Assembly (NCBI GenBank): GCA_028873525.1
Contig: JAGWIM010000010.1
Span: 1-36,007 of the forward strand
Direction: 5' to 3'
DNA: 36,007 bases
DNA from: Pseudomonadota bacterium
GTDB taxonomy: Bacteria; Pseudomonadota; Alphaproteobacteria; Rickettsiales; SXRF01
Positions 21,039 to 36,007 of the stretch are shown one piece after another (the stretch's first letter is position 1; each line of letters opens with the position of its first letter). The notes under the pieces were generated by a model. That model saw only the letters and a list, made by a program, of their open reading frames with translations. It ran no database searches and was not told where the DNA came from. Position numbers and translations under genes: made by a program.

Positions 21039-21115
21039 CGGAGTGTAGCTCAGCCTGGTAGAGCACTACGTTCGGGACGTAGGGGCCGGAGGTTCGAATC
21101 CTCTCACTCCGACCA
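21039..21115 (+). tRNA. tRNA-Pro(CGG)
   Basis: CGGAGTGTAGCTCAGCCTGGTAGAGCACTACGTTCGGGACGTAGGGGCCGGAGGTTCGAATCCTCTCACTCCGACCA; loop TTCGGGA; acceptor stem CGGAGTG/CACTCCG. Confidence 0.96.
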
Positions 21116-22621
21116 TTTTACAATATCATCACATTTGGCGAACTCGCTAAAGGGAAACCGCATTGAATACTCTAGCTTTTTCCCTTTTAATTTTAGGTTC
21201 AAAAATACAAAATTGAGCAGATCGCGTTTTTCGGCGAAGTTTGAACCCCGGAACCGGTCAAGCGCGCCTGCGGATAAATTAAGTAGGTCTATTAGGCGGT
21301 TAGTAAAAGCGTCATCTGCCTCGTCATAACTGCGTATAAGGTCGTCAATTTCGTACTGCCGATCTTTGAGCCTGCGTTTCTTGGCCTCAAACTCTTCCTT
21401 GCTAATTACCTTCTCCATCATCAGGTCAAGGAGCTTATCGAGCTTTTCTTCAATCTCGGTATGTTCTTTTTTCAGCACCGCCGTTTGCTTTATATGGAAT
21501 GCCTTTTTGCTTTCGTTCGTTTGAAAGATGTGTGAGGTAATATTCTGGAGCAGCTTTTCATTCTTTATAGCCAGCGTTTCAAGCGCGGCCTCCACCTGTT
21601 CGAGCACCTGTTCTTCGCGTACCCACACTTTCTTTTTTGGATCGTCAGGATTCCATGATGAAAGGTAAATCCATTCATCCCTGCCGCCGTGCTGATAAGT
21701 TTTGCTATGGCGTTCGGCAGAAATAGTTTTGCCGGTCGTGGCGCAGGTTAAGATGCCACGGAACACGAAGTCAATGCCCGCATATTTAAATGGTTTTTTC
21801 TCCCAGCCCAAACGCACCTCCTGACAGCGATCAAATAGCGCTTTCGATATTAACGGAGGATAGCGATGTGGGTGTTCTTCGCCATTCTTTTTTATTTTCA
21901 TCACCCCGTAATAAAACGGATTGGTGAGAATTTTATACATCTGCGATTTATTGACCAGCTTTTTTAACCGCTTAGAATTGGTCAATCCCCATTCCTGCGC
22001 GAATTCCATCATCTCACCCAGCGTATGGCTGCCGGTGGAATAGGTTTCATAAATACGCGTTACCAACGCCGCGCGCGCTTCGTCGACAATGACATCGGCT
22101 CTGCCGCGCTCATCGCGTGTATTCAAATAGCCGATAGGTGCCAATCCGATACATTCGCCTTTTTTCAGCTTTTGGCTTTTAGAGCGATTGACGTTATCGC
22201 GCAACGAATCGACATAACTCTGCGCCATCATGACGCTCATATTCCACATCAACCTTTCCATAGATGTGGAATTCTGGTGGATGATGCAATTTTCGACGTG
22301 AAAATGTAGTTCGATTTTCCCGCGATTGACCAGGTCATCCAGCAACGGCGTTTCCTTAAAGCTACGCTGGATGCGATCAACTTTATCGGCGACAATGGCA
22401 ATCCTTGTCCTCTGCTGCTTGGCGAAGGCGATCATCTCCATGAAGTGCTTGCGGTCGCCATTGGTCGATGATTCGATGATGGTGAAGGATTTTAATACCT
22501 CAAGCCCTTTTCGCCGACAATATTCTTGCAAGCGATTGAGCTGAGCGTCAATCGAATAACCTTCCTCCTGTTCACGCGTCGACACGCGCGCCAGGATGAT
22601 AGCTTTAGTTGCTTGTGTCAT
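21104..22621 (-). CDS. Large serine recombinase (resolvase + recombinase + zinc-ribbon-like/coiled coil)
   Basis: AIILARVSTREQEEGYSIDAQLNRLQEYCRRKGLEVLKSF ... IVADKVDRIQRSF. Confidence 0.93.
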   Translation of the reverse strand: MTQATKAIILARVSTREQEEGYSIDAQLNRLQEYCRRKGLEVLKSFTIIESSTNGDRKHFMEMIAFAKQQRTRIAIVADKVDRIQRSFKETPLLDDLVNRGKIELHFHVENCIIHQNSTSMERLMWNMSVMMAQSYVDSLRDNVNRSKSQKLKKGECIGLAPIGYLNTRDERGRADVIVDEARAALVTRIYETYSTGSHTLGEMMEFAQEWGLTNSKRLKKLVNKSQMYKILTNPFYYGVMKIKKNGEEHPHRYPPLISKALFDRCQEVRLGWEKKPFKYAGIDFVFRGILTCATTGKTISAERHSKTYQHGGRDEWIYLSSWNPDDPKKKVWVREEQVLEQVEAALETLAIKNEKLLQNITSHIFQTNESKKAFHIKQTAVLKKEHTEIEEKLDKLLDLMMEKVISKEEFEAKKRRLKDRQYEIDDLIRSYDEADDAFTNRLIDLLNLSAGALDRFRGSNFAEKRDLLNFVFLNLKLKGKKLEYSMRFPFSEFAKCDDIVKWSE

Positions 22622-23445: not shown

Positions 23446-24657
23446 TTAGCCCTCCGTGGTGAGTTCGACGCCCGTCACGCGCGCGCCGGTTTTCGTGGCC
23501 TCTGCAAACCAGCGGTTGAGGTCGGCCAGGTAGTGTCGGGTGATCCAGTCGACGACGAATTTGCTGGGGCATTGCAGCGTGGCTAATGCCCTGCCTGAAT
23601 GCGACTTCGTGTTGGTGACCACGGTATTGGCCAGCCAGCTGCGGCAGGTATCCCGGCTGTATTTTTGCTCAAAGGAACGCAGCACGCTGCCCCACGCTTC
23701 CTGCAAAGCGATGACGTTGCAGGCGGGCGGCTTCGGTGGATGATTGCCGCCTGAAAATCCGCCCTCGAGGATTTTAGCGACGTGGTCGGAAGATTCGACG
23801 GCCCAGTTCAGGTCAATCGTCCAGCCTTTGCCCTCGATTTTGCCGAGGCAGAAATCCGATGCGCCGATGACCTGGCAGTAATACTGCCATGCCCGCATGT
23901 CCTGCTGGAAATCTTCCAGCCATCGCAGCGTCATCTGCTCTTTGCGTTTTGGCGTTAAAATCGCCTTCTGCCCTCTGGTGAGCTTACTTTGTACCTCTGA
24001 ATTCCAGACGTCGAGCATTTGTAAAAGGGTGCCGCTAGCGTCTGGCTTCTGATCGGTGGCTTGTCCACCGATCTTCTGTTTTTCCCTCTCGCGCTCTCCC
24101 TTTTCTTCTCTCGCTCTAAGTTTTTTATCTGAATCTTTTTTTAAATCTTTTTCTGCTTCTACCTCTGCCTCTTTTTCTGGTTCTGCACTCTGCGATCTGT
24201 TTTCTGCTTCTGAATTCTGTAATCTGTTATCTCTCTCTGTATCTGTCTTTTTTTGCGTACTTTTTTGTTGCGCGGCGTTTCCCGGCGTTGCATCGCGTTG
24301 CATCGCGTTGCATGACGCTGCATCGCGTTGCGTCTTGGCGCGGGATTTCTTGGAACGCTCGGTGGGGCTTGTGTATTGACGCTTATCCCAGCTGGTAAGG
24401 CGGTTTTCTGCCGTGAGCAAATTCTTTTCGTAAAAGCCGTTAATGATTTTGATAACGTCTTCTGTTTCAAGATTTTGCAGCACGGCGATTTGCTCGGCAT
24501 CAATCACCACGTTGCCGCGCGGATTATTCTGCGACGCCATATCGAGCAGGCACACCCACACCGATAGCACGCTGGCCATCGGCTGCTTGGTGCGGTGCGC
24601 GATCACCTTTAATTTGGTGTCCTGCGGCATACCGTGATAAGCCCTGTACCAGTCCAT
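23446..24657 (-). CDS. Replisome-organizer-like replication protein with C-terminal DnaA N-domain-like region
   Basis: N-term DWYRAYHGMPQDTKLKVIAHRTKQPMASVLSVWVCLLDMAS; middle SDFCLGKIEGKGWTIDLNWAVESSDHVAKILEGGF; C-term ALQEAWGSVLRSFEQKYSRDTCRSWLANTVV...LQCPSKFVVDWITRHYLADLNRWF. Confidence 0.75.
   Translation of the reverse strand: MDWYRAYHGMPQDTKLKVIAHRTKQPMASVLSVWVCLLDMASQNNPRGNVVIDAEQIAVLQNLETEDVIKIINGFYEKNLLTAENRLTSWDKRQYTSPTERSKKSRAKTQRDAASCNAMQRDATPGNAAQQKSTQKKTDTERDNRLQNSEAENRSQSAEPEKEAEVEAEKDLKKDSDKKLRAREEKGEREREKQKIGGQATDQKPDASGTLLQMLDVWNSEVQSKLTRGQKAILTPKRKEQMTLRWLEDFQQDMRAWQYYCQVIGASDFCLGKIEGKGWTIDLNWAVESSDHVAKILEGGFSGGNHPPKPPACNVIALQEAWGSVLRSFEQKYSRDTCRSWLANTVVTNTKSHSGRALATLQCPSKFVVDWITRHYLADLNRWFAEATKTGARVTGVELTTEG
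24281..24330. repeat. 10-bp phased direct repeats (catcgcgttg type), candidate iterons
   Basis: cccggcgttg/catcgcgttg/catcgcgttg/catgacgctg/catcgcgttg at exact 10-bp spacing. Confidence 0.8.
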
Positions 24658-26487: not shown

Positions 26488-27576
26488 ATGCCATTCACGC
26501 CGAAATTCACCATTACCGCGAAAGTCGCCAGCTGCCTGATGCGTATCGAGGCGGCAAAGCAGGCGGTGCAGGATTTACCGATTACGCCTTCTGTGCTGGC
26601 GTCTTTGCGCGAAACGGCGCGGTTATTTTCCACGCACTATTCCACCATGATCGAGGGCAACCGGCTGACCCAGGAACAGGTGTCAAAAGTGATCGAGGAC
26701 AAGCAGCATTTTCCGGGGCGTGAACGCGACGAAAAAGAAGTGCTGGGCTATGACGCCGCGTTGGAAAAACTGGAGCAGCTTACCGCTTCCGGCAGCGCCG
26801 TCACCGAAACGCATATCCAAACGCTGCATGCGCTGGTAATGGCCGAGGGTCGGAAAAAGGTGAAGCCCACGCCCTATCGTGACGGCCAGAATGTAATCCG
26901 CGATAGCCGCAGCCGTGGCCTTGTGTACATGCCGCCCGAAGCCAAAGACGTACCGCCGCTAATGAAGGAAATGGTTGCGTGGGTAGCCTCTACCGGGGGC
27001 AAGGAATTGCCGTGCCCGATTCGTGCCGGTATCGCGCATTATGAATTCGCCACCATCCACCCATATTATGATGGCAATGGCCGCACGGCGCGGCTGCTTA
27101 CCACGCTCATTCTGCATCTAGGCGGGTATGATTTGAAAGGTCTATATTCGCTGGAAGAATACTATGCCCGGAATCTAGGCGCATATTATGAAGCGCTCAC
27201 CATCGGCCCGTCGCACAATTATTACGAAGGGCGCGCTAAAGCCGATATTACCAAGTGGGTGGAATATTTCTGCGAAGGAATGGCGGATAGCTTTGAGAGT
27301 GTGAAACGCCGCGCACTGGAAGCTGCTGGCAGCGGGGCGCAAGATCGCTCCCCGGCGCTGCGCCGCCTTGACCCACGCCAACGCAAGGCGCTTGAATTAT
27401 TCCGCGACAGTAACGCGATCACCAGCCGCGATATCGCAAGCCTGTTTAGAATCTCGGAGCGCGCCGCACGCAATTTGCTTACCGCATGGGTGGATGATGG
27501 TTTTCTGGTGATCGCTGACCCAGCGAAGAAAAGCCGCAAGTATGAATTGGCCGGTGAATTTAGGGAGATTTTGTAA
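26488..27576 (+). CDS. Fic family protein with N-terminal inhibitory motif and C-terminal winged helix
   Basis: Fic core HPYYDGNGRTARLL; STMIEGN matches the (S/T)xxxE(G/N) inhibitory motif; C-term RDIASLFRISERAARNLLTAWVDDGFL. Confidence 0.93.
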   Translation: MPFTPKFTITAKVASCLMRIEAAKQAVQDLPITPSVLASLRETARLFSTHYSTMIEGNRLTQEQVSKVIEDKQHFPGRERDEKEVLGYDAALEKLEQLTASGSAVTETHIQTLHALVMAEGRKKVKPTPYRDGQNVIRDSRSRGLVYMPPEAKDVPPLMKEMVAWVASTGGKELPCPIRAGIAHYEFATIHPYYDGNGRTARLLTTLILHLGGYDLKGLYSLEEYYARNLGAYYEALTIGPSHNYYEGRAKADITKWVEYFCEGMADSFESVKRRALEAAGSGAQDRSPALRRLDPRQRKALELFRDSNAITSRDIASLFRISERAARNLLTAWVDDGFLVIADPAKKSRKYELAGEFREIL

Positions 27577-27961
27577 GACTGGAGCGTGGACTGTTTTTCA
27601 GCGCATCCGGCTCCTTATAGGCATAATCGGCTGCATCATCCACAGCGACAACAACATGGCCAAGCTGCTTGCATGCCGCCTGCAATACGTGGCATAGGTG
27701 AAAATCGCGGGCCAGGCGGGATTCATCCCTTACAAGTATGCAATGCGCGGATGCCCCCTGCAGAAACTGCATCATCTCTCGCAGCCCATGGCGATTGGCA
27801 TTATTGCCGGATTTTCCGGAGTCATAAAATACGCCACTAATATCAAAGCCGCGCGTTGCTGCGTAGGTACGGCATTGTGCTTCCTGCGCCAGAATCGCAA
27901 GATCGTTGTGTGAACCGCATGCGGTTCGGCAATAGATCACTGCCATAGTCGGTTCCATCAC
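27560..27961 (-). CDS. Stand-alone serine-recombinase catalytic-like domain with Ser-to-Ala active site
   Basis: MAVIYCRTACGSHNDLAILAQEAQCRTYAATRGFDISGVFYDSGKSG...ILVRDESRLARD; Y-x-R-x-A instead of Y-x-R-x-S. Confidence 0.8.
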   Translation of the reverse strand: MMEPTMAVIYCRTACGSHNDLAILAQEAQCRTYAATRGFDISGVFYDSGKSGNNANRHGLREMMQFLQGASAHCILVRDESRLARDFHLCHVLQAACKQLGHVVVAVDDAADYAYKEPDALKNSPRSSLTKSP

Positions 27962-27967
27962 TCCTCC

Positions 27968-28567
27968 TTATAATAGCTCATAGTACCGTGGCTGGCAGTT
28001 TTTCATGGGCTGGATAAGTCCGGCCTTAAGCAATCCTTTCAGATCGCGTCGGGCAGTTTTGGCATGAATCTGCCATGTATCCACCAGATTTCCGGCGTGC
28101 ATGATATAACCCTGCTGCAGTTGTCCTAAGAACCATAGCTGACGCTGGTTCAATTGCACAGCCGTATGCGCATCAACCCGGACATAGATATGGACAAATT
28201 TGTCCCTTTCCATCGACAATTTATTCCGGTTTTTACACTTTTCATCCAGCCGCGTGCGCATGGTTTCAACGATACCCATACGCATTGCTTCCTGCCAGAG
28301 AGAGCCGAAACCCATATGCTCAAGCAGCATTTGCAGCACCTGCGGATAAAGTGAAGCAATTATCAGCAAGTGATTGGATTTAGGCGTATATTCATACTTA
28401 TACCATTTCCCGACAGTGCTGTAGGAGATACCGGTGTTTCTTGCGATATGCCGAAGCGATGCGCTCATATCGGCATGCGCTTCTAGTAACGCGGCACGTA
28501 CCATTTTGCCGAGTATTTTGTTGGTAATTCCGGAATGGCCGGAGTGGCCTTTTTTTGTGACAGACAT
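27968..28567 (-). CDS. HTH-containing hypothetical regulator
   Basis: SLRHIARNTGISYSTVGKWYKYEYTPKSN N-term HTH; C-term AKTARRDLKGLLKAGLIQPM winged-helix-like. Confidence 0.7.
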   Translation of the reverse strand: MSVTKKGHSGHSGITNKILGKMVRAALLEAHADMSASLRHIARNTGISYSTVGKWYKYEYTPKSNHLLIIASLYPQVLQMLLEHMGFGSLWQEAMRMGIVETMRTRLDEKCKNRNKLSMERDKFVHIYVRVDAHTAVQLNQRQLWFLGQLQQGYIMHAGNLVDTWQIHAKTARRDLKGLLKAGLIQPMKNCQPRYYELL

Positions 28568-28578
28568 GGTTTTACTCC

Positions 28579-28596
28579 CTTGTTAAAGTTAACAAG
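28579..28596. promoter_or_regulatory. Palindrome CTTGTTAA-AG-TTAACAAG in a divergent intergenic region
   Basis: Perfect 8-bp arms with 2-nt spacer between divergent regulator and recombinase genes. Confidence 0.6.
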
Positions 28597-28652
28597 AGAG
28601 AAAATGGCTTTATTCTCAGGCAACTGGGGATCAGTTTTTTATTGGATTCAGT

Positions 28653-30215
28653 GTGCAGAAATTTTCAAATACACAGGGCAAAGAGCAAAAGGTGCCGCCT
28701 AAGAAAGCGGCTATGTATGTGCGCATGTCCACCGACCACCAGAAATACTCCACGGAAAATCAGGCCGACGCCATCCGCGCCTATGCTGACCGCTACCATA
28801 TAGAAATCATTAAAACCTACACCGACTCAGGAAAAAGCGGCCTGAGCATCGATGGCCGCGATGCGCTGAAACAATTGATTGATGATGTACAATCCGGTGT
28901 AACGGATTTTTCCATTATCCTGGTACTGGATATCACGCGCTGGGGCCGGTTCCAGGATGCCGACGAAAGTGCCTATTATGAATATATATGCCGCCGCGCC
29001 GGTATTGACGTGCGATACGTGGCAGAGCAATTTGAAAATGACGGCAGCCTGAGCGCCACAGTCATTAAAAGCATGAAACGCGCCATGGCCGGGGAATATA
29101 GCCGCGAGCTTTCAGTCAAAGTATTTGCTGGGCAATGCCGCCTGATCGAGCTTGGCTATCGCCAGGGCGGCCCTGCCGGGTATGGGCTGCGCCGCGTATT
29201 GATCGATGAGCGTGGGGAACAAAAAGCGGAGCTTAAGCGCGGCGAACATAAAAGCCTGCAGACCGACCGAGTAATCCTGATGCCGGGGCCGGAGGAAGAA
29301 ATAGAAACCGTGCGCTGGATATACAGTTCCTTTTGCGACGGCATGCCGGAAAGCAAAATTGCAGCGCTGCTCAATCAACGCGGCGTCATTACCGATCTTG
29401 GCCGCGCCTGGACGCGCGGCACTGTGCATGAGGTGCTGACCAATGAGAAGTATATCGGCAATAACATTTTTAACCGCACATCCTTCAAACTGAAAAAGCG
29501 CCATGTTGTCAATACGCCCGATATGTGGGTGCGCAAGGAAAAAGCCTTTCAGCCGGTCATCGAGCCCAGCTATTTTTATGTGGTGCAGCAGATTATTCTG
29601 GAACGCAGCTACCGATTTAGCAACGAGGAAATGTTGGAAAAGCTGCGCCAGCTGCATGATCGCCAGGGCTGGCTGTCCGGGGTGGTTATCAATGAAGCCG
29701 AGGATATGCCTTCCAGCAGCGCCTATCAGCACCGCTTTGGCAGCCTGATACGCGCCTACCAGCTGATCGGCTTTACGCCCGCCCATGATTACCGCTATAT
29801 CGAAATCAACCGCCGCCTGCGCCAGCTGCACGGCGATATCGTTAAGGATACCATTGCTAAAATCGAGCAGTTGGGCGGCAAGGTGCGCATCGAGCCGCAA
29901 ACAGAATTGCTGGTCATCAACGAAGAATTGAAATGCTCGCTGGTGATTTGCCGCTGCCAGCAGACACAGGCGGCGGCCTATCGGTGGAAAGTGCATCTTG
30001 ATACCGGCCTGCTGCCGCATATCACCATCGCCATACGGATGGACGCGCGCAATGAAAAACCCATGGATTACTACCTGCTGCCTGCGCTCGATATCGAAAA
30101 CCCCAGGCTGCGCCTGGCGGAAAGCAATGGGCTGGCGCTTGATGCCTATCGCTTCGATGATCTTGAGGTATTTTTTCAACTAACCGAACGTATTGCCATA
30201 GAGGAAGTCGCATGA
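28653..30215 (+). CDS. Large serine recombinase (second)
   Basis: KKAAMYVRMSTDHQKYSTENQADAIRAYADRYHIEIIKTYTDSGKSGLSIDGRDALKQLIDD. Confidence 0.93.
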   Translation: MQKFSNTQGKEQKVPPKKAAMYVRMSTDHQKYSTENQADAIRAYADRYHIEIIKTYTDSGKSGLSIDGRDALKQLIDDVQSGVTDFSIILVLDITRWGRFQDADESAYYEYICRRAGIDVRYVAEQFENDGSLSATVIKSMKRAMAGEYSRELSVKVFAGQCRLIELGYRQGGPAGYGLRRVLIDERGEQKAELKRGEHKSLQTDRVILMPGPEEEIETVRWIYSSFCDGMPESKIAALLNQRGVITDLGRAWTRGTVHEVLTNEKYIGNNIFNRTSFKLKKRHVVNTPDMWVRKEKAFQPVIEPSYFYVVQQIILERSYRFSNEEMLEKLRQLHDRQGWLSGVVINEAEDMPSSSAYQHRFGSLIRAYQLIGFTPAHDYRYIEINRRLRQLHGDIVKDTIAKIEQLGGKVRIEPQTELLVINEELKCSLVICRCQQTQAAAYRWKVHLDTGLLPHITIAIRMDARNEKPMDYYLLPALDIENPRLRLAESNGLALDAYRFDDLEVFFQLTERIAIEEVA

Positions 30216-31108
30216 TCAAACAGCATAACGCCACTATCAAAATCATCCCGGTGGACAGCGTCCATATTCTCAATCCGCGCGTGCGCAACGCCAAGGTTTT
30301 TGAGGGGATTGTCGATAACATCACCAAGGTGGGGCTTAAGCGCCCGATTACCGTTACGCATTCCCGTTCTAGGTTCGAGGGCAAGGAATATGACCTGGTG
30401 TGCGGCCAGGGACGGCTGGAAGCCTTTATGGCCTGCGGGCAAAAAGAGATTCCGGCTATGGTTATCGACGCCAGCGAGGAACAGGCGCTGATCATGAGCC
30501 TGGTGGAAAATGTCGCGCGCCGCAAACATAAGCCGTTTGAACTACTGCAGGGCGTCGAAATATTGCGCAAGCAAGGCTATGACGCCAAGACTATCGCCGC
30601 TAAAATCGGCCATAAGCCGGAATACACTATGGGCGTTATCAAGCTACTCGAACAGGGTGAGGAAAAGCTGGTGTCGGCGGTGGAAGCCGGGCATATCCCG
30701 ATTACCCTGGCCATCAACATTGTGCAGTCGCCGCAGAATGAGCAGGCCGCGTTGCAGGAAGCCTATGAAACGGGCAACCTCAGCGGCCATAAATTCATGA
30801 AAGCAAAGCGCCTGCTGGAAGACCGCAAAAACACTGGCAAAGTTTTGCGCGACAAAAGGAAGCGCGGGCCGCAGCGCCGCACTGAAGATGTGTCGGCGCG
30901 CGAGATACTCAAAGCCTATAAGCGGGAGGTGGAACGCAAACGCCTGCTATCGCGCAAGGCGGATGTGGTCAATACGCGGCTATTATTCCTGGTGGAAGCC
31001 ATGCGTTGCTTGATGCAGGAAGACCATTTTACCACGCTGCTGCGTGCAGAAAGCCTGGAAACGATGCCCAAACAGCTGGCCGGGCTGCTGGCAGCAAAGA
31101 GAGGATAA
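30212..31108 (+). CDS. ParB/RepB-like partition protein 1
   Basis: LKRPITVTHS...DLVCGQGRLEAFMACGQKEIPAMVIDASEEQALIMSLVENVARRKHKPFELLQGV; starts 4 nt inside recombinase stop. Confidence 0.88.
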   Translation: MIKQHNATIKIIPVDSVHILNPRVRNAKVFEGIVDNITKVGLKRPITVTHSRSRFEGKEYDLVCGQGRLEAFMACGQKEIPAMVIDASEEQALIMSLVENVARRKHKPFELLQGVEILRKQGYDAKTIAAKIGHKPEYTMGVIKLLEQGEEKLVSAVEAGHIPITLAINIVQSPQNEQAALQEAYETGNLSGHKFMKAKRLLEDRKNTGKVLRDKRKRGPQRRTEDVSAREILKAYKREVERKRLLSRKADVVNTRLLFLVEAMRCLMQEDHFTTLLRAESLETMPKQLAGLLAAKRG

Positions 31109-31110
31109 CC

Positions 31111-32010
31111 ATGTCAAAGCAACCGCCCATTGGATTCGATACGGATACCATAACGCTAAAACTGGAGGATATTTCGCCGTTGCGGATCGTAACTCCCGCC
31201 ATGCGCGAGAGCGATAAATTCCAACAGATAGTAGCCTCCATTCGGGAAATCGGCATCATCGAGCCACCCGTAGTGGCGCGCAAGCAAAAGAATCAGGAAA
31301 AACATTTGCTGCTAGATGGCCATTTGCGTGTCGAAGCCTTGAAGGAACTGGGCGAAAAAGAGGTGACATGCCTGGTATCCACCGACGACGAAGCCTTCAC
31401 CTACAACAAATATATCAGCCGCCTGTCGACCATCCAGGAACACCGCATGATCGTGCGTGCCGTTAAGCGCGGCGTATCGGAGGCGAAACTGGCGCGGGCG
31501 CTTAATCTCAATGTCGCCAATATAGTGCGCAAGCGCAATCTGCTGCAGGGTATTTGCCCGGAGGCAGTTGAATTGCTCAAGGATAAGATGGTGGCCAGCA
31601 ACGTGTTCAAAATCATGCGGCGCATGAAAGCGGTGCGACAAATCGAAGCCGCCACTTTAATGAACGATGCGAATATTTATTCGTTTCCTTATATCCAGGC
31701 CTTGCTGGTCGGAACGCCAAAGGCGCAGCTGGTCGATCCAGAAAAACCAAAGACAGTAAAAGGTTTGGATGATGAACAGATGGCGCGCATGGAGGCGGAA
31801 ATGGGCAGCCTGCAGGGAGAATACCGGCTGATCGAGGAAAGCTACCGCACCAACGTGCTGAATTTGACGGTGGCGCAGACTTTTCTTTCCACGCTGCTTG
31901 GTAATGCGCGGGTGACAAAATACCTCACCCAGCATTACCCGGAATTCCTAACGCAGTTCCAGAAAATTGCTAGCATGACATCGCTGGGCGGCGGCGAGGT
32001 CACGTCATAG
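31111..32010 (+). CDS. ParB/RepB-like partition protein 2
   Basis: GIIEPPVVARKQKNQEKHLLLDGHLRVEALKELGEKEVTCLVSTDDEAFTYNKYISRLSTIQEHRMIVRAV; start MSKQPPIGF with GAGAGGA upstream. Confidence 0.88.
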   Translation: MSKQPPIGFDTDTITLKLEDISPLRIVTPAMRESDKFQQIVASIREIGIIEPPVVARKQKNQEKHLLLDGHLRVEALKELGEKEVTCLVSTDDEAFTYNKYISRLSTIQEHRMIVRAVKRGVSEAKLARALNLNVANIVRKRNLLQGICPEAVELLKDKMVASNVFKIMRRMKAVRQIEAATLMNDANIYSFPYIQALLVGTPKAQLVDPEKPKTVKGLDDEQMARMEAEMGSLQGEYRLIEESYRTNVLNLTVAQTFLSTLLGNARVTKYLTQHYPEFLTQFQKIASMTSLGGGEVTS

Positions 32011-32103
32011 GCATTGCATGGCCAACGCCAGGCACAGAGACCGGGATTCTGTATAAGCGCCGGGACTGCGGGAGACGCTGCACCAGGGGCAGATCGAGCG
32101 CAG

Positions 32104-32241
32104 TGGCAGGAATGGCGGCGATCCCGCTGGAGCCTGCCAGGCCAGCTGTCTTTTCGCTGGCCGACTGCGCGTTGCATATGGCCGCGCAGCAGGGAAACAC
32201 ACCGGTGTTGTAGCTGCCATTGCGCTCCACCGGTGTGTTTC
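32104..32241. other. Chain of four perfect-stem hairpins (structured intergenic element, possible ncRNA, centromere or recombination site)
   Basis: tggcagg/cctgcca 32104-32139; ggccagc/gctggcc 32140-32162; ctgcgcg/cgcgcag 32165-32189; gaaacacaccggtg/caccggtgtgtttc 32194-32241. Confidence 0.7.
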
Positions 32242-32507
32242 TTTACCCCTTAGCCGCTAGATCGCCGCAGAATGGACGCACTCAACAGTAAAGCGCTAAG
32301 TCAGGCAAAAACTATCCTAATGAGTTATAAAACCTTGCTTTTCCTAGATATAAGTCCTAGTTTTGTGCCGATATAAAACAGAAAAATACGAACTATGGCC
32401 AACGTAAATGACAACTGTATAATGTGCGTGATCTGATAGTGTTCCCTTTTGCCTTGTCGGCTGGCCTGCTTTCGACAACCTTCCTCTTTATTTAGTTAAT
32501 TATTTAT

Positions 32508-35249
32508 ATGAATATCGGTAAAATTGAAGAAAACATACAGCAGTTGGTTAAGACCCCTTCCCAGGAAGAATTCATCTATGGCCTGCTGCTTGCTTACGGT
32601 TTGCCGAAGGCCTCAATTACGCGCCTAAAAGATGGTGCGTATAACCTTTCAAAGAAAAAAGGCACGATCCTCTGGAAGAAAAAACTGTTGTTTCAAGAGG
32701 TTTTTGACCAAGACCTACATGCCTGTATCGACCAGCTGCGCCGCAATGAGGACGCCATAAAGCATAGCCCACGCTTCGTGATCGTGACGGATTATGAAAC
32801 GCTCCTGGCATACGATACCAAAACCAAAGATACGCTCGATACCAAGCTAAAAGACCTGGCCAAGTATTTTGATTTCTTCCTGCCGTGGTCAGGTCGAGAG
32901 AAAGCCCAGGCCAAACTGGAAAATCCTGCTGACGTCAAAGCCGCCGAAAAAATGGCGAAGCTATACGATAACATCCGGCAGGATAACCCGCACCAATTCC
33001 ATGATTATAAATCGCTGCACGAGTTAAACGTATTCCTTTCGCGCCTGCTATTTTGCTTCTTTGCTGAAGACACGGAGATTTTTCCTAAGAAGCTGTTCGT
33101 CAATAGCATCGCCTCCCATACCCAGCCGGATGGCAGCGACCTCTCGGAGTACCTGGAACGCTTATTTGAGGTGCTAAATACCAAGCACTCGGATCGCAAA
33201 GGCTTTCCCGAATATCTAAAAAAGTTTGAATATGTGAATGGTGGGCTGTTTTCCGATAGCTATACAGCACCGAAATTTACCCCACGCTCACGAAAAATGC
33301 TGATTGAGTGCGGCGAACTGGACTGGTCGGAAATCAATCCTGACATTTTCGGCTCGATGATCCAGGCGGTGGTACATCCCGACCAGCGCGGCGGCATGGG
33401 TATGCACTATACCTCCGTCAGCAATATTATGAAGGTGATCGAGCCATTATTCTTGAATGAGTTGAACGAGGAATTTGAGAACAACCAGCATAACCCGCAG
33501 AAGTTGGATAAGTTGCTGGGCCGTCTCTCCACCATACGCATATTTGACCCTGCGTGCGGATCGGGCAATTTCCTGATTATTGCGTACAAGGAACTGCGCC
33601 TGCTTGAAATCAAAATCCTAAAACAGCTAAAAGCTCTGAGCGAAGGGACAAGCGAATTAGATGACGTGCAGGCGTCGTTGATTCCAAAAGCGCAAATGAG
33701 TTTAGCGTCCACCTACGTTCCACAATTATTTTCGCGCGTTGATCTCTCTCAATTTTATGGAATCGAATTAGATGATTTTGCCCATGAAATTGCTATCCTC
33801 TCCCTCTGGCTTGCTGAACACCAGATGAACGTGAAGTTTAATGAGGCGTTCCAAAAGAAACTGCCATCACTACCGCTTAAGCAAGGCGGAAAAATTATCT
33901 GTGACAATGCTACACGGTTGGATTGGGAAAAAGTTTGTACAAAAGACAAAGATTCCGAGGTTTATATCCTTGGTAATCCACCGTATTTAGGCTTTAATGT
34001 TTTGAGCGCCGAGCAGAGAAAAGACATAGAATTTGTTTTGCCTGAATTAGATAATCTAAAATTCTTGGATTATATAACATGCTGGTTTATTAAGGCTGCG
34101 CGTTACACGAAGGGTAATTGTCGTTTTGCTTTCGTAACAACAAATTCAATTTGCCAGGGTGTTCAGGTTCCCATCGTATGGCCGCATATTTTTAATCAAA
34201 ATTTGGAGATTAATTTTGCACACTCGGAATTTGCTTGGTCAAATAATGCCAAAAAGAATGCTGGTGTAATATGCTCCGTAATTGGCCTGCGGCCAATCAG
34301 CAATAAACCAAAATATTTCTATGAAAATACAACTAAAATCGAGGTAAAAAATATCAATGCTTACCTAGTAAATGGGGGCAACATAATAGTTGAAAAGCGT
34401 CAAACCCCATTATCGAATCTTCCAAAAATTTCTACCGGAAATATCCCATACGATGGTGGCAACCTTATTCTAACAAGTGAGGAAGCCAAATCGTTGCTTC
34501 TTAATTATCCCCAATCTCGAGAGTTCATAAAAGAGCTTTCCGGGTCTGTTGAATTTATTAGGGGAATTACGAGGTATTGTCTTTGGATCGAGGATAATCA
34601 AGTTGTTCTTGCTAGATCAAGTGCACCAATTCAGGCTCGAATTGAGGCGGTAAAAAAATCTCGTGAGCAAGCAGGTAAGATCGCAAAAAATTATGCTCAT
34701 GTTCCCCACAAATTTTACATGACTAATCGCGCAAAAGAATCACAAATTATAATCCCGCGCGTTTCTTCTGTGCGACGAAAATATATCCCAATGGGATTCT
34801 TAAAAAGTGATGTAATAATCTCAGATTCAGCGCAAGCAATTTATGATCCAGAAACGTGGGTATTCGCGGTCATTACCTCCTACATGCACATGGTATGGGT
34901 TAAGGCAATAGGCGGAAAACTAAAAAGCGATTATAGATATTCTGCGGTAATTTGTTACAATACATTCCCTGTTCCCGATCTATCATCTCAGCAAAAAGCT
35001 ACTCTGACTACGCATGTTCTGAATGTGCTTGAGGAGCGTGAAGCCCATTCAGAAAAAACGATGGCTGAATTATATGATCCAGAAAAAATGCCAAAAAGTC
35101 TTAGGGATGCCCACGCTGGCTTAGATGAGGCCGTTGAACGCTGTTACCGCATCAAGCCTTTCACTAGCGACGAAGAACGCTTGGAGTATCTCTTCAAACT
35201 CTATGAGGAAATGACCGTTGCAGGAAACCGGAGGGCGGCTAATGAATAA
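32508..35249 (+). CDS. MmeI-like class I SAM-dependent adenine DNA methyltransferase
   Basis: FDPACGSGNFLIIAYKELR (motif I), ILGNPPYLGF (motif IV), FLSRLLFCFFAEDTEIF. Confidence 0.9.
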   Translation: MNIGKIEENIQQLVKTPSQEEFIYGLLLAYGLPKASITRLKDGAYNLSKKKGTILWKKKLLFQEVFDQDLHACIDQLRRNEDAIKHSPRFVIVTDYETLLAYDTKTKDTLDTKLKDLAKYFDFFLPWSGREKAQAKLENPADVKAAEKMAKLYDNIRQDNPHQFHDYKSLHELNVFLSRLLFCFFAEDTEIFPKKLFVNSIASHTQPDGSDLSEYLERLFEVLNTKHSDRKGFPEYLKKFEYVNGGLFSDSYTAPKFTPRSRKMLIECGELDWSEINPDIFGSMIQAVVHPDQRGGMGMHYTSVSNIMKVIEPLFLNELNEEFENNQHNPQKLDKLLGRLSTIRIFDPACGSGNFLIIAYKELRLLEIKILKQLKALSEGTSELDDVQASLIPKAQMSLASTYVPQLFSRVDLSQFYGIELDDFAHEIAILSLWLAEHQMNVKFNEAFQKKLPSLPLKQGGKIICDNATRLDWEKVCTKDKDSEVYILGNPPYLGFNVLSAEQRKDIEFVLPELDNLKFLDYITCWFIKAARYTKGNCRFAFVTTNSICQGVQVPIVWPHIFNQNLEINFAHSEFAWSNNAKKNAGVICSVIGLRPISNKPKYFYENTTKIEVKNINAYLVNGGNIIVEKRQTPLSNLPKISTGNIPYDGGNLILTSEEAKSLLLNYPQSREFIKELSGSVEFIRGITRYCLWIEDNQVVLARSSAPIQARIEAVKKSREQAGKIAKNYAHVPHKFYMTNRAKESQIIIPRVSSVRRKYIPMGFLKSDVIISDSAQAIYDPETWVFAVITSYMHMVWVKAIGGKLKSDYRYSAVICYNTFPVPDLSSQQKATLTTHVLNVLEEREAHSEKTMAELYDPEKMPKSLRDAHAGLDEAVERCYRIKPFTSDEERLEYLFKLYEEMTVAGNRRAANE

Positions 35250-36007
35250 TCATGCTATAGGGCAGGATTATGAGGATTTTGTTGAGACCGTTTACAAAGC
35301 GATCTTAGAAGCCGAACGGCGCCAAGGAAAAACTGCGCCGGTGACTATTGAACGGAATAAAATCATTACCTCAAAAAGCGGAACGCCAGCAGAGATAGAT
35401 ATTTATTGGGAATATCAGGTGGCGGGAATCACGCATAGGGTGGCGATTGAGTGCAAAAATTATAATAAAAATATCGATATCCCAAGGGTACGCGATTTTG
35501 CTAGGAAAATTGAACATCTCAGCGGCCTCAAAGGCCTGATGGTTACGAAAAAGGGATTTTCAGAAAATGCCATAGCCGAAGCGTCAGCGGATAATATCGA
35601 CCTTCTCATTATTCGTGAGCAAAGAGATCAGGATTGGGATGGTCGTATAAAGCAAGTCAACGTGCGGATACATATACTCTCCGCCTCTAGAACGATTAAA
35701 ATTATTCCCACATTTAATAAAAGCTGGATGCTAAATAATGGCTTCAAAGAGGGTGATTTAATTAACTATAGCACCACAAATGAGTTGATCATTATTGAGG
35801 ATGCAGCGTCAGCATTCAAACACACTCTACGCCAGTTAGAACAAAGTGATTTCTTTGAACAAAAAGAGCCAGGAACTCATGTATGGCAGAAGCAATTTCA
35901 AGATGGGTGGATATCCTTCGATCAAATAAAATTAAAGTTAGATTCAATCGCGGTTGAATACAACAAACCGAATATAATGCAGCAAGAAGTAAATGTTAAT
36001 TTTGAAC
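35242..36007 (+). CDS. Mrr-like PD-(D/E)XK restriction endonuclease (truncated by window end)
   Basis: Own translation: MNNHAIGQDYEDFVETVYKAILEAERRQGKTAPVTIERNKIITSKSGTPAEIDIYWEYQVAGITHRVAIECKNYNKNIDIPRVRDFARKIEHLSGLKGLMVTKKGFSENAIAEA; starts 8 nt inside methyltransferase ORF. Confidence 0.88.
   Translation, partial: MNNHAIGQDYEDFVETVYKAILEAERRQGKTAPVTIERNKIITSKSGTPAEIDIYWEYQVAGITHRVAIECKNYNKNIDIPRVRDFARKIEHLSGLKGLMVTKKGFSENAIAEASADNIDLLIIREQRDQDWDGRIKQVNVRIHILSASRTIKIIPTFNKSWMLNNGFKEGDLINYSTTNELIIIEDAASAFKHTLRQLEQSDFFEQKEPGTHVWQKQFQDGWISFDQIKLKLDSIAVEYNKPNIMQQEVNVNFE

Follow-up and report, generated by a model that had tools for sequence, protein, structure and literature searches.

Large serine integrases of the phiC31, Bxb1 and LI integrase type join Resolvase and Recombinase domains to a C-terminal zinc ribbon with a coiled coil, and this zinc-ribbon end normally helps to control the direction of recombination. 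ParB, Noc and KorB are DNA clamps switched by cytidine triphosphate (CTP) and are known chiefly from segregation and repression, while RepB (PF07506) is the partition protein of RepABC systems. Structured ends are known from other mobile elements: IS607/IS605 (omega RNA) and IS110 (bridge RNA) are recombinase or transposase elements with a structured RNA at their end, and integron cassettes carry a structured 3′ element, attC, on units with varied cargo. Here we describe a locus with likenesses to each of these systems on a 36,007-nt stretch from an alphaproteobacterium of the order Rickettsiales (JAGWIM010000010.1). This stretch, the window, is one whole contig ending at 36007, from a 2.0-Mb draft genome of 156 contigs. 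The locus encodes a serine recombinase followed by two ParB-like proteins, ParB1 and ParB2, and a structured RNA (Table 1).

Tentatively, and with somewhat less than even confidence, we read the locus as a self-contained mobile recombination module of ~4 kb, in which a gene for a helix-turn-helix (HTH) repressor lies divergent to recombinase, ParB1, ParB2 and a structured RNA with a terminal hairpin, and in which the clamps and the terminal element would replace the parts that normally set directionality. The parts of the module and its mobility are supported by sequence; what ParB1, ParB2 and the RNA do in it is our inference.

Table 1. Features of the window, numbered from its first nucleotide
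Feature	Positions	Strand	Remarks
Serine recombinase	28653-30215	+	GTG start, 520 aa
ParB1	30212-31108	+	298 aa; ParB_N and RepB domains
ParB2	31111-32010	+	ATG start, 299 aa; ParB/Noc/KorB-like fold
Whole structured element	32031-32245	+	~215 nt, after ParB2
Structured RNA core (model R1)	32031-32172	+	nhmmer, covariation, covariance model
RNA core hairpin	32036-32049	+	Part of R1
RNA pseudoknot	32041-32044 / 32060-32063	+	Part of R1
RNA 3′ hairpin	32140-32162	+	Part of R1
Terminal hairpin, then T's	32193-32242	+	Inverted repeat there in most RNA loci
Divergent HTH gene	27968-28567	-	199 aa; weak HTH matches; fourth conserved module gene
Perfect palindrome	28579-28596	.	CTTGTTAA-AG-TTAACAAG; between HTH start and recombinase
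tRNA-Pro	21039-21115		Adjoins canonical large serine integrase
Canonical large serine integrase	21104-22621		At tRNA-Pro, 6 kb left of module
Phage-type replication gene	23446-24657	-	Accompanies tRNA-Pro integrase

A recombinase in operon with two ParB proteins

The three genes are tightly packed, ParB1 overlapping the recombinase by 4 nt and ParB2 following after a gap of 2 nt; a longer ParB2 frame, from a TTG at 31006, also appears in the mechanical list of open reading frames (ORFs). An earlier sequence-only reading of this DNA had given the same positions, overlap and gap and had named a recombinase and two RepB-type ParB proteins, all of which the coordinates and Pfam matches bear out. 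Relatives of ParB2 were sought in plasmids, bacterial genomes (the best 80 of 582 confirmed places) and viral contigs (67 loci), and gene order could be judged at loci with at least 3.6 kb upstream of ParB2 (n = 115). ParB1 and the recombinase directly precede ParB2 at 113 of these 115, which excludes a chance association. The three proteins co-evolve: at mean pairwise identities of 59% (recombinase), 48% (ParB1) and 48% (ParB2), their distance matrices correlate at 0.86 (recombinase and ParB1), 0.84 (recombinase and ParB2) and 0.91 (ParB1 and ParB2), with permutation maxima of at most 0.14. The trio is concentrated in Alphaproteobacteria.

A ParA query found nothing in any trio locus by tblastn, on which we base the statement because a regular-expression scan missed annotated ParA controls. 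In the genome of the window, ParA/MinD-type matches (AAA_31) lie on other contigs only. The trio therefore lacks, in its neighbourhood, the ParA partner of a ParABS partition system, and no parS was identified for it, although a search aimed at clustered parS-like sites was not made. Thus, the conserved, ParA-less unit that the sequence-only reading had described holds up across the survey. Its further suggestion, that the ParBs serve recombination, has fared well in part: given this conserved unit and its co-evolution, it is reasonable to see ParB1 and ParB2 as working with the recombinase and not in segregation, but that reading had overlooked the divergent HTH gene, the structured RNA, the replaced C-terminus of the recombinase and, at tRNA-Pro, a canonical serine integrase separate from the trio.

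The recombinase matches Resolvase (PF00239, 77.5 bits) and Recombinase (PF07508, 76.4 bits) and, below the Pfam threshold, HNH_repeat; it is laid out as a catalytic domain, a recombinase domain, a helical HNH_repeat-like domain and a beta-rich C-terminal domain. With large serine integrases it shares the two Pfam domains, the catalytic Ser26 and a fold that matches integrases over about the first 320 residues, and R24-M-S26 is invariant in the recombinase alignment (A3), as is the core of large serine recombinases. It departs from them in its end and in its company: the zinc-ribbon pattern CxxC..CxxC occurs in 0 of 118 C-terminal parts, its place is taken by the conserved helical and beta-rich region, and the gene is fixed in one operon with two ParB genes. 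The catalytic serine and domains are thus those of a large serine recombinase, and the zinc ribbon with its coiled coil is missing. The C-terminal domain has no fold match in the PDB, and no nuclease motif was established in it.

ParB1 matches ParB_N (37.9 bits) and RepB, ParB2 matches RepB at 155 bits with ParB_N below threshold, and the two are the sole PF07506 matches in the genome. The NPRxR, CGxGR and ENxARR motifs of ParB1 are at least 95% conserved in 134 proteins, and these CTP-pocket motifs, together with its ParB_N domain, place it among the ParB CTPase clamps. ParB2 has fold matches to ParB, Noc and KorB, with weaker ones to sulfiredoxin and free serine kinase (SerK), but in 147 sequences its ENxxR motif is replaced by TYNKxxxR, and it falls outside the motif definition of the CTPase clamps. 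It carries an LLDGHxR pocket motif at residues 67-73 (window 31309-31329), which, taken with the weak SerK and sulfiredoxin matches, points to a nucleotide pocket of a kind different from that of the CTPases. The pair therefore differs from described ParB, Noc and KorB clamps in the altered pocket of ParB2 and the lack of ParA; both proteins carry the family domain of RepABC RepB, yet their operon partner is a recombinase and no RepA-type ATPase is adjacent.

HTH-type homologues lie directly upstream of the trio, and divergent from it, at 68 loci (ORF clustering), and the protein is presumed to be a repressor. The palindrome in front of it is a candidate operator: several other loci have similar inverted repeats in the corresponding position, and a promoter scan found a promoter-like site (28589-28616) that overlaps it.

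The structured RNA behind ParB2

Similarity between trio loci runs past the ParB2 stop codon into a non-coding stretch. Of the 152 loci at which the ParB2 stop could be mapped, 99 have the RNA by a nucleotide profile; it lies 1-97 nt past that codon and on the strand of ParB2. An alignment of 53 non-redundant copies (A2) holds 25 base pairs, the pseudoknot included, with 98.4% of cells paired; 16 pairs have changed on both sides, and covariation reaches 0.321, against 0.02-0.09 for slid pairings. Since single-sequence folding only modestly beats shuffles (z about -2.3), the case for a structure rests on covariation. None of the Rfam 15 covariance models matches the RNA, and a scan of 26-34 kb of the window, up to E = 5, returned only a sub-threshold CRISPR-DR match elsewhere. 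The terminal hairpin is the right end of the RNA and probably that of the module. On the recombinase tree, RNA presence or absence requires 14 changes, at least 8 of them forced by well-supported branches; RNA-bearing loci fall on either side of the root as drawn, and distant hosts are intermixed. This pattern agrees with an RNA of old origin that was repeatedly lost or diverged, and with horizontal transfer.

The RNA is also found away from the trio. In 289 genomes of the trio's class, all 16 strong matches follow a ParB2 gene or its C-terminal remnant, and one weak match (E 5e-4) does not lie behind ParB2. A wider sample of the phylum yielded weaker matches (E 2e-4 to 7e-18), at most four per genome and mostly without the trio. 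These divergent copies fit the same structure, with a covariation of 0.63 against 0.06-0.16 in an alignment that was fitted to the model and includes three copies from trio-bearing loci. Several trio-free copies adjoin phage tail genes. Locus L080 has two RNAs, 87% identical over 197 nt: one behind the trio, the other further on, past a 1162-aa ORF and a PIN-domain gene. At L279 (452-6677), which has no trio, two direct RNA copies flank an nSTAND1-FGE sulfatase-domain gene that is a candidate for a role in defence. At both loci paired RNAs enclose defence-like cargo distinct from the trio, which suggests that units other than the trio's own can bear this tag.

The tandem units of L080 recall integron cassettes. 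In contrast to integrons, however, the recombinase is a serine enzyme rather than a tyrosine recombinase of the IntI type and lies inside a unit, and the element, unlike attC, is pseudoknotted and highly conserved in sequence. From omega and bridge RNA systems the module differs in having no TnpB and in an RNA whose complementarity to the flanks does not exceed chance. A guide role for the RNA was rejected on this ground: its longest matches to the flanks (150 nt on the right and an approximate left flank), with means of 7.5-8.8 nt, equalled those of mismatched-pair controls.

Mobility, module ends and surroundings

The four genes recur as a unit of 3.9-4.0 kb, with the RNA included in one pair. 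Two Agrobacterium pAt plasmids carry the unit in unrelated surroundings at 96.9% identity over 3904 bp, with tRNA T-arm-like sequence at the junctions, and one genome holds two 3.97-kb copies (L234/L235), 84% identical, in different contexts. Because it recurs in unrelated contexts, the four-gene module is, as judged from these alignments, mobile. In the in-genome copies and in Rhodobacteraceae loci, similarity stops just outside the terminal hairpin.

Comparison of Sphingobium locus L033 with the trio-free L187 places an insertion between arsH and a DUF2493 gene, with a ~75-bp imperfect repeat; the imperfect repeat and the mixed lineages yield no exact site. General targeting of tRNA genes was rejected, as few intact tRNAs lie near trios and T-arms are not enriched at the right end, a weak excess being confined to the left end. 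Individual loci (pAt L032/L184, L083 and L241) do adjoin tRNA-like sequence, and in L241 (7850-8500) and L083 a ParB2 remnant or end lies directly beside a tRNA gene or a tRNA 3′ half. A T-arm-like repeat, YYTTGANNGGRAYYGAACC (L032, L184-L186, L190 and their plasmids), is present in 1-11 copies per Agrobacterium plasmid at no more than one mismatch; it is strand-biased, the reversed control gives none, and it bounds trio, VapBC and AbiEii-type modules.

With a separate serine integrase at tRNA-Pro (Table 1), the surrounding element need not depend on the trio for its integration; the tRNA-Pro 3′ end occurs once in the contig, and no second repeat (attR) was found there. Several viral records resemble the window in this pairing, with the trio towards one end and another serine recombinase towards the opposite end. 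The trio is therefore better regarded as a module in its own right than simply as the integrase of its carrier. Between a Fic gene and the HTH gene of the window, a 133-aa stand-alone resolvase catalytic domain is encoded (27560-27961, minus strand), which has no counterpart beside other trios. The sequence after the module (32508-36007) holds an MmeI-like type IIL restriction-methylation enzyme and, behind it, an ORF resembling a restriction endonuclease, which the contig end truncates.

Proposed mechanism and alternatives

In the reading that we prefer, the HTH protein would silence the divergent promoter and, once repression is relieved, the recombinase would act on sites at the module ends. 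ParB1, as a sliding clamp that depends on CTP, would load on module DNA together with ParB2, its partner with the altered pocket, and the pair would supply the synapsis or directionality for which large serine integrases normally use their zinc-ribbon domain and a directionality factor. The 3′ end of the mobile unit would be marked by the structured element, whether this joins the complex as RNA or is recognised by the machinery as a folded end of DNA or RNA.

Several observations weigh against this mechanism. The RNA is missing from 53 of the 152 trios, about a third, and is therefore not essential to the trio proteins in all lineages; conversely, 12 of 14 RNA-bearing genomes in another class lack ParB2, so the RNA also exists independently. 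No direct repeat was found at the ends of the in-genome copies L234/L235 in a comparison of 9-mers, nor a conserved target motif beside the right end of the module. Furthermore, several of the 22 viral trio records carry a second serine recombinase and six carry a tyrosine integrase, so that phage integration need not fall to the trio in those records.

Possible, if on balance unlikely, is that the recombinase mobilises alone, the ParBs being KorB-like transcription regulators of the element or of its host phage or plasmid and the RNA a 3′ untranslated region that protects or terminates the transcript. Both the fold and the sequence matches include KorB, a ParB-family transcriptional repressor from plasmids, the RNA lies close behind ParB2 and ends in a hairpin, and the module already holds an HTH regulator and a palindrome. 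The ParBs co-evolve tightly with the recombinase, however, and the RNA, with its pseudoknot and covarying multi-helix core, far exceeds a terminator in complexity and is also found outside the operon. We are distinctly sceptical of a broader proposal, a cassette-mobilising system in which a ParB-driven serine recombinase would recognise the pseudoknotted RNA (or folded DNA) as a 3′ tag and move both itself and RNA-tagged cargo, such as defence genes, in trans among phages, plasmids and chromosomes.

It seems improbable that the trio is a hitch-hiking, homing-like parasite of prophages and plasmids, aimed by the HNH_repeat-like C-terminal domain while the ParBs find or protect the target. The sub-threshold HNH_repeat similarity would agree with this, as would the frequent position beside phage tail genes, the second serine recombinase that lies opposite in several records and the plasmid copies in unrelated contexts, but the C-terminal domain offers neither an established nuclease motif nor a PDB fold match, and no target was found. 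We give very little credence to a defence or plasmid-exclusion system with the recombinase as effector, the ParB clamps as sensors and the RNA as guide or antitoxin: although Fic, WYL, helicase/methylase, STAND and type IIL restriction-modification genes are among the neighbours, no PADLOC model matches the trio convincingly, the RNA does not pair with its flanks above chance, and the conserved serine-integrase core and repeated unit boundaries indicate mobility. Partition of an excised circular form with ParA in trans has the slimmest chance, since the RepB-type ParB domains and the many plasmid or prophage carriers are set against two ParBs with different pocket motifs, frequent residence in chromosomes and no ParA near any trio.

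A literature search, which covered few subscription papers or preprints, returned no description of the module or its RNA. The recombinase and ParB families are known. The databases and literature searched gave no precedent for their constant pairing, for the exchanged end of the integrase or for the RNA. A fixed partnership of ParB proteins with a recombinase would extend CTP-switched clamps to DNA recombination and offer a testable model for the control of synapsis and direction. The RNA, as a strongly covarying family outside Rfam 15 that also occurs without the trio in another class, poses an approachable question of function. Serine recombinases without the usual directionality domain could serve as genome-engineering tools, and the module may be a new way to move genes between phages, plasmids and chromosomes.
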